Of a stretch of DNA of 64,000 bases, positions 43,445-47,011 are shown piece after piece. The stretch is from contig JAJSAM010000033.1 in the NCBI GenBank assembly GCA_024274785.1, positions 44,398-108,397 of the forward strand. Direction: 5' to 3'. The translations under genes were made by a program, and so were the position numbers. Position 1 is the stretch's first letter. Each line of letters opens with the position of its first letter. Source of the DNA: Planctomycetota bacterium (lineage in GTDB: Bacteria; Planctomycetota; JAJSAM01). The notes under the pieces were generated by a model that saw only the letters and a program-made list of their open reading frames with translations, was not told where the DNA came from and ran no database searches.

Positions 43445-47011
<3,567 letters not shown>

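Follow-up and report, generated by a model that had tools for sequence, protein, structure and literature searches.

What does a single amber codon mean in an otherwise intact gene for pyruvate:ferredoxin oxidoreductase (PFOR)? Taken at face value, it would point either to readthrough or to a central ferredoxin-linked enzyme having been lost. The gene lies in a 64,000-nucleotide stretch of the genome of a Planctomycetota bacterium (hereafter the window, to which coordinates given without a handle refer), and the features of the locus are the following.

43435 to 43440, plus strand: GAGGAG, a plausible ribosome-binding site read from the sequence, 7 nt 5' of the ATG at 43448
43448 to 47011, plus strand: gene for a NifJ-type PFOR, supported by TIGR02176 on both sides of the stop, by PDB entries 6cin, 1b0p and 7plm, and by its translation
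43754 to 43756, plus strand: TAG, codon 103 of the PFOR gene
43793 to 43795, plus strand: GTG, the first in-frame start 3' of the stop, whose product would be without the N-terminal 115 residues
47024 to 48019, plus strand: intact partner gene for a dihydroorotate dehydrogenase-like protein (PRK07565)

Apart from a single stop, the frame codes for PFOR (TIGR02176) over its full length, 1,187 of its 1,188 codons being intact. Residues 1-102, 5' of the TAG, match TIGR02176 positions 1-98 (181 bits), and the part 3' of it matches positions 112-1166 of 1167 (1591 bits), so that the full-length single chain scores above the curated cut-off of 911 bits. The upstream 102 amino acids align end to end with the solved PFORs 7plm, 1b0p and 6cin, and both parts are in register with these structures, in agreement with the original prediction, which had described the frame as open on both sides of the stop and had also correctly placed the GTG and the intact partner gene. 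A single stop flanked by family matches in a long open frame excludes chance. The protein shares the single-chain, full-length architecture of known PFOR/NifJ enzymes (TIGR02176; PDB 1b0p, 6cin, 7plm), with the nearest homologues at about 60-77% identity, and it is the N-terminal thiamine pyrophosphate (TPP)/substrate part that is interrupted, at codon 103. A homologue of the dihydroorotate dehydrogenase-like partner is present at 64 of 91 PFOR loci. Elsewhere in the window, a short HigB/RelE-like frame (around 48826-48990, minus strand) ends in a TAG somewhat earlier than usual for toxins of this type, which may be its natural end.

As had been proposed, the stop falls on a conserved glutamate: the aligned residue is Glu, encoded by GAA or GAG, in all 90 PFOR homologues compared, none of which shares the stop, and it is therefore private to this genome. 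Whereas this Glu is otherwise invariant in known PFOR/NifJ proteins, an in-frame TAG occupies the same position here. Both genomes of the same family carry an uninterrupted PFOR (77% identity), and the nearest named PFOR records come from metagenome-assembled genomes (MAGs) of Planctomycetota (75-76% identity). Independent frameshifts in relatives, which would have indicated plain decay, were not found, the relatives being intact. Ordinary pseudogene decay of PFOR would fit the fact that any product initiated 3' of the premature stop lacks the N-terminal substrate/TPP region; however, all other codons are intact, the ribosome-binding site and the partner gene are preserved, and the gene is kept in relatives. 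Across the approximately 236 columns whose conservation reaches 98.5% of the sequences or more, the TAG is the sole deviation of this PFOR, with no other conserved column changed; the gene is therefore not decaying, and we regard this explanation as highly improbable. In a genome of the same order, an endonuclease III-like gene (G006:C65:3852-4454) also contains one internal TAG; lone stops thus occur in other assemblies too.

Functional readthrough or recoding, in which the TAG would be translated as Glu or as a special residue to give full-length PFOR, would account for the otherwise intact gene, and Glu is also the commonest residue at the extra stops of this genome described below. Against it, a CUA anticodon was absent from all 45 Rfam tRNAs and from tRNA-Sec (typed with ARAGORN), so that the search for a suppressor tRNA(CUA) was negative; a CUA-loop pattern searched across the genome coincided with tRNA genes only in tRNA-Arg(TCT) and in the D-arm of two genes for tRNA-Glu. 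The search for PylS was likewise negative, its N-terminal family (TIGR03912) having no match in the genome, with a positive result for the Methanosarcina acetivorans control. As the genome is 90.4% complete, the absence of these readthrough genes is strong but not absolute evidence. Release factor RF1 is present (440 bits), and TAG terminates 528 of 1745 strongly coding open reading frames (ORFs), approximately 30%. A code with TAG reassigned was ruled out on these grounds, as the original prediction had anticipated, and conserved programmed readthrough was rejected because the stop is not conserved in orthologues. An in-frame TAG within an enzyme gene is also a feature shared with pyrrolysine or amber-suppressor decoding, but unlike in those systems there is here no PylS and no tRNA with a CUA anticodon, the stop is not conserved, and TAA and TGA are hit as well.

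These further stops emerged from dicodon scans covering 2.40 Mb of sequence, 53% of a genome of 4.54 Mb, in which every stop with a coding signal on both sides was considered and candidates were then inspected and checked by Pfam and orthologues; a single-codon scan lacked power, since antisense frames gave similar scores. Inspection left about 20 additional genes in the 2.40 Mb that are each interrupted by a single in-frame stop; none of the interrupted genes contained a second. The lone stop in PFOR is thus not singular: it is an ordinary case, and this assembly has many lesions like it. In most of these genes a Pfam domain spans the stop. The stop is within the domain, or a short way before its end, in the BcrAD-type ATPase, class III aminotransferase (lysine 6-aminotransferase type), CCG-domain protein, SLC13 symporter, PelF-like glycosyltransferase, family-4 glycosyltransferase, PBP-like protein, GNAT acetyltransferase, nitronate monooxygenase (NMO)-like protein, RsmD-type methyltransferase, MazG-like protein and XPB-like helicase, while the interrupted sensor kinases were recognised by domain order. 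No row of the search showed a stop in the matching segments of related genomes. Representative interruptions are listed below.

L240:1810-1812: TAG in the BcrAD-type ATPase gene
L175:6570-6572: TAG in the SLC13 symporter gene
L245:19094-19096: TAG in the RsmD-type methyltransferase gene
L204:4663-4665: TAG in the MazG-like gene
L206:17437-17439: TAG in the GNAT acetyltransferase gene
L242:5808-5810: TAA in the CCG-domain protein gene
L252:8601-8603: TAA in the lysine 6-aminotransferase gene
L161:9440-9442, minus strand: TGA in the XPB/RAD25-like helicase gene, at a position where the solved homologues shown have a conserved Gly

Twenty other TGA candidates were scanned and yielded one true interruption, that of the XPB-like helicase; each of the others was either a normal junction between genes or lacked a Pfam domain extending over the stop. 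Three additional TGA codons lie at the redox-cysteine positions of a BCP-type peroxiredoxin (L163:4983-4985, minus strand), an HdrA-like protein (L132:9237-9239, minus strand) and a thioredoxin-like protein (L127:8351-8353, minus strand), and were left out of the interrupted set as probable selenocysteine codons. Together with a gene for tRNA-Sec (TCA) at L199:97-193 (minus strand), they suggest that the organism probably makes selenoproteins. A frameshift scan returned antisense noise only.

The ancestral residue at each stop was read from an alignment to an orthologue or a solved homologue, a single orthologue serving for each gene (44-87% identity); the NMO-like candidate and C26:102695 had no usable orthologue and stand outside the tally. 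The residue was Glu in ten genes: PFOR, the BcrAD-type ATPase, the SLC13 symporter, the RsmD-type methyltransferase, one glycosyltransferase, the MazG-like protein and the GNAT acetyltransferase, and, at TAA stops, a PocR-type kinase, a TPR/FGE protein and a TolC-like protein. Ser was replaced by TAG in three (one glycosyltransferase, ExbB and a PAS kinase) and Gly by TGA in one, the helicase. Asp was found at TAA in three (the aminotransferase, the CCG-domain protein and one unknown protein), and Ala in four (PelF, PBP, a KorB-like protein and one unknown protein).

Stops that arise by G:C>T:A transversion (GAG>TAG, GAA>TAA, TCG>TAG, GGA>TGA) are expected to replace Glu, Ser or Gly, whereas Gln, Trp, Arg, Lys, Tyr and Leu are the residues expected from transitions and other routes. 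None of the latter six occurred at the interrupted sites in relatives among the aligned cases. A single G:C>T:A transversion fits 14 of 14 resolved cases, for TAG, TAA and TGA alike, as expected of an artefact restricted to this one type of change. Equal single-base routes would predict 51% G:C>T:A, giving p of about 1e-4 for 14/14, a value to be read in light of the fact that the candidates were partly selected by hand, that the helicase was added by eye and that the scan covers about half of the genome. The seven further cases (Asp and Ala) are compatible with G:C>T:A but do not prove it. Self-comparison of repeats as another source of the substitution spectrum was abandoned, as there were too few repeats.

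Recoding would have to explain three different stops (TAG, TAA and TGA) standing in for Glu, Ser and Gly, while a substitution process accounts for every one of these cases. Judged from the sequences, the set of stops is a spectrum of mutation or error and not a change of the code. Functional readthrough of the PFOR stop is accordingly very unlikely in our assessment, and of the three options considered in the original prediction, nonsense mutation and sequencing error are supported, while the tests speak against site-specific readthrough. It is more doubtful still that UAG, and with it UAA, would be read as Glu at low efficiency in this lineage, whether through a near-cognate tRNA-Glu or through a suppressor that escaped detection, so that PFOR and other interrupted genes would yield some full-length product.

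The explanation that we consider most likely, with reasonable though not high confidence, is that a G>T error entered the consensus of a metagenome-type assembly, real mutation coming next. On this reading, the TAG is a single G:C>T:A change carried by the assembly in a single-copy PFOR gene that is intact otherwise. It is one of a set of private stops across the genome, each a lone lesion and of a common substitution type, most of which would be consensus errors. Such errors may have arisen as misreads or through oxidation of the library DNA and have been fixed where coverage was thin, and the organism itself would carry an intact PFOR. The assembly comprises 83 contigs and is 4.65% contaminated. 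In HiSeq metagenomic reads, misreading of a true G yields T for the most part, and error-prone positions tend to follow GGG or CGG (PMC4787001); the T of the PFOR TAG is preceded by GGG, while most other interrupted sites are without that motif. Ex vivo formation of 8-oxoguanine also gives rise to G>T artefacts (PMC12390751). Such G>T/C>A sequencing and oxidative-damage artefacts (PMC4787001, PMC12390751) share with the stops described here the substitution type and the scattered single lesions, and need no indel; the difference is that the lesions here are seen in assembled contigs and not in reads. A rate of roughly 1e-4 consensus errors per base, all of one substitution type, would call for low coverage, and this requirement counts against the error reading.

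A recent true nonsense mutation, by which the strain would have lost PFOR and some 20 other dispensable genes through a G:C>T:A-biased process in vivo, is possible but distinctly less probable. Its cause would be oxidative stress or a mutY/mutM-type mutator, and the strain would rely on other 2-oxoacid oxidoreductases. Unrepaired 8-oxoguanine in vivo would give the same single-substitution spectrum, and Escherichia coli mutM and mutY mutants show raised GC>TA transversions (PMC2865507). The search for an intact paralogue found no second full PFOR in the genome, only distant 2-oxoacid oxidoreductases, but such 2-oxoacid:ferredoxin oxidoreductase-like genes (C22, C26 and weaker matches) would fit a loss of this kind. 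The interrupted genes are mostly accessory, which fits it as well. That none of them is obviously essential speaks against the error reading, though with little power, because by a rough estimate errors would strike only about two such genes. On the other hand, no gene has a second in-frame stop, and all the mutations would have to be very young. Moreover, unlike in mutators deficient in MutY or MutM (PMC2865507), which produce the same substitution type, a mutY-like gene (C39, 276 bits) and a mutM-like gene (C66, 159 bits) are present without stops, with scores resembling those of genomes of the same family. Judged by presence without stops, neither gene is lost, which gives a mutator no support; missense defects or oxidative stress would still be compatible.

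Cases of this kind may be told apart by asking whether a genome contains other private single-lesion stops, and which substitution produced them. The shared G:C>T:A type found here points to sequence error or mutation, and PFOR should therefore be taken as probably present in metabolic models of this organism. Other genes of this assembly call for the same caution.
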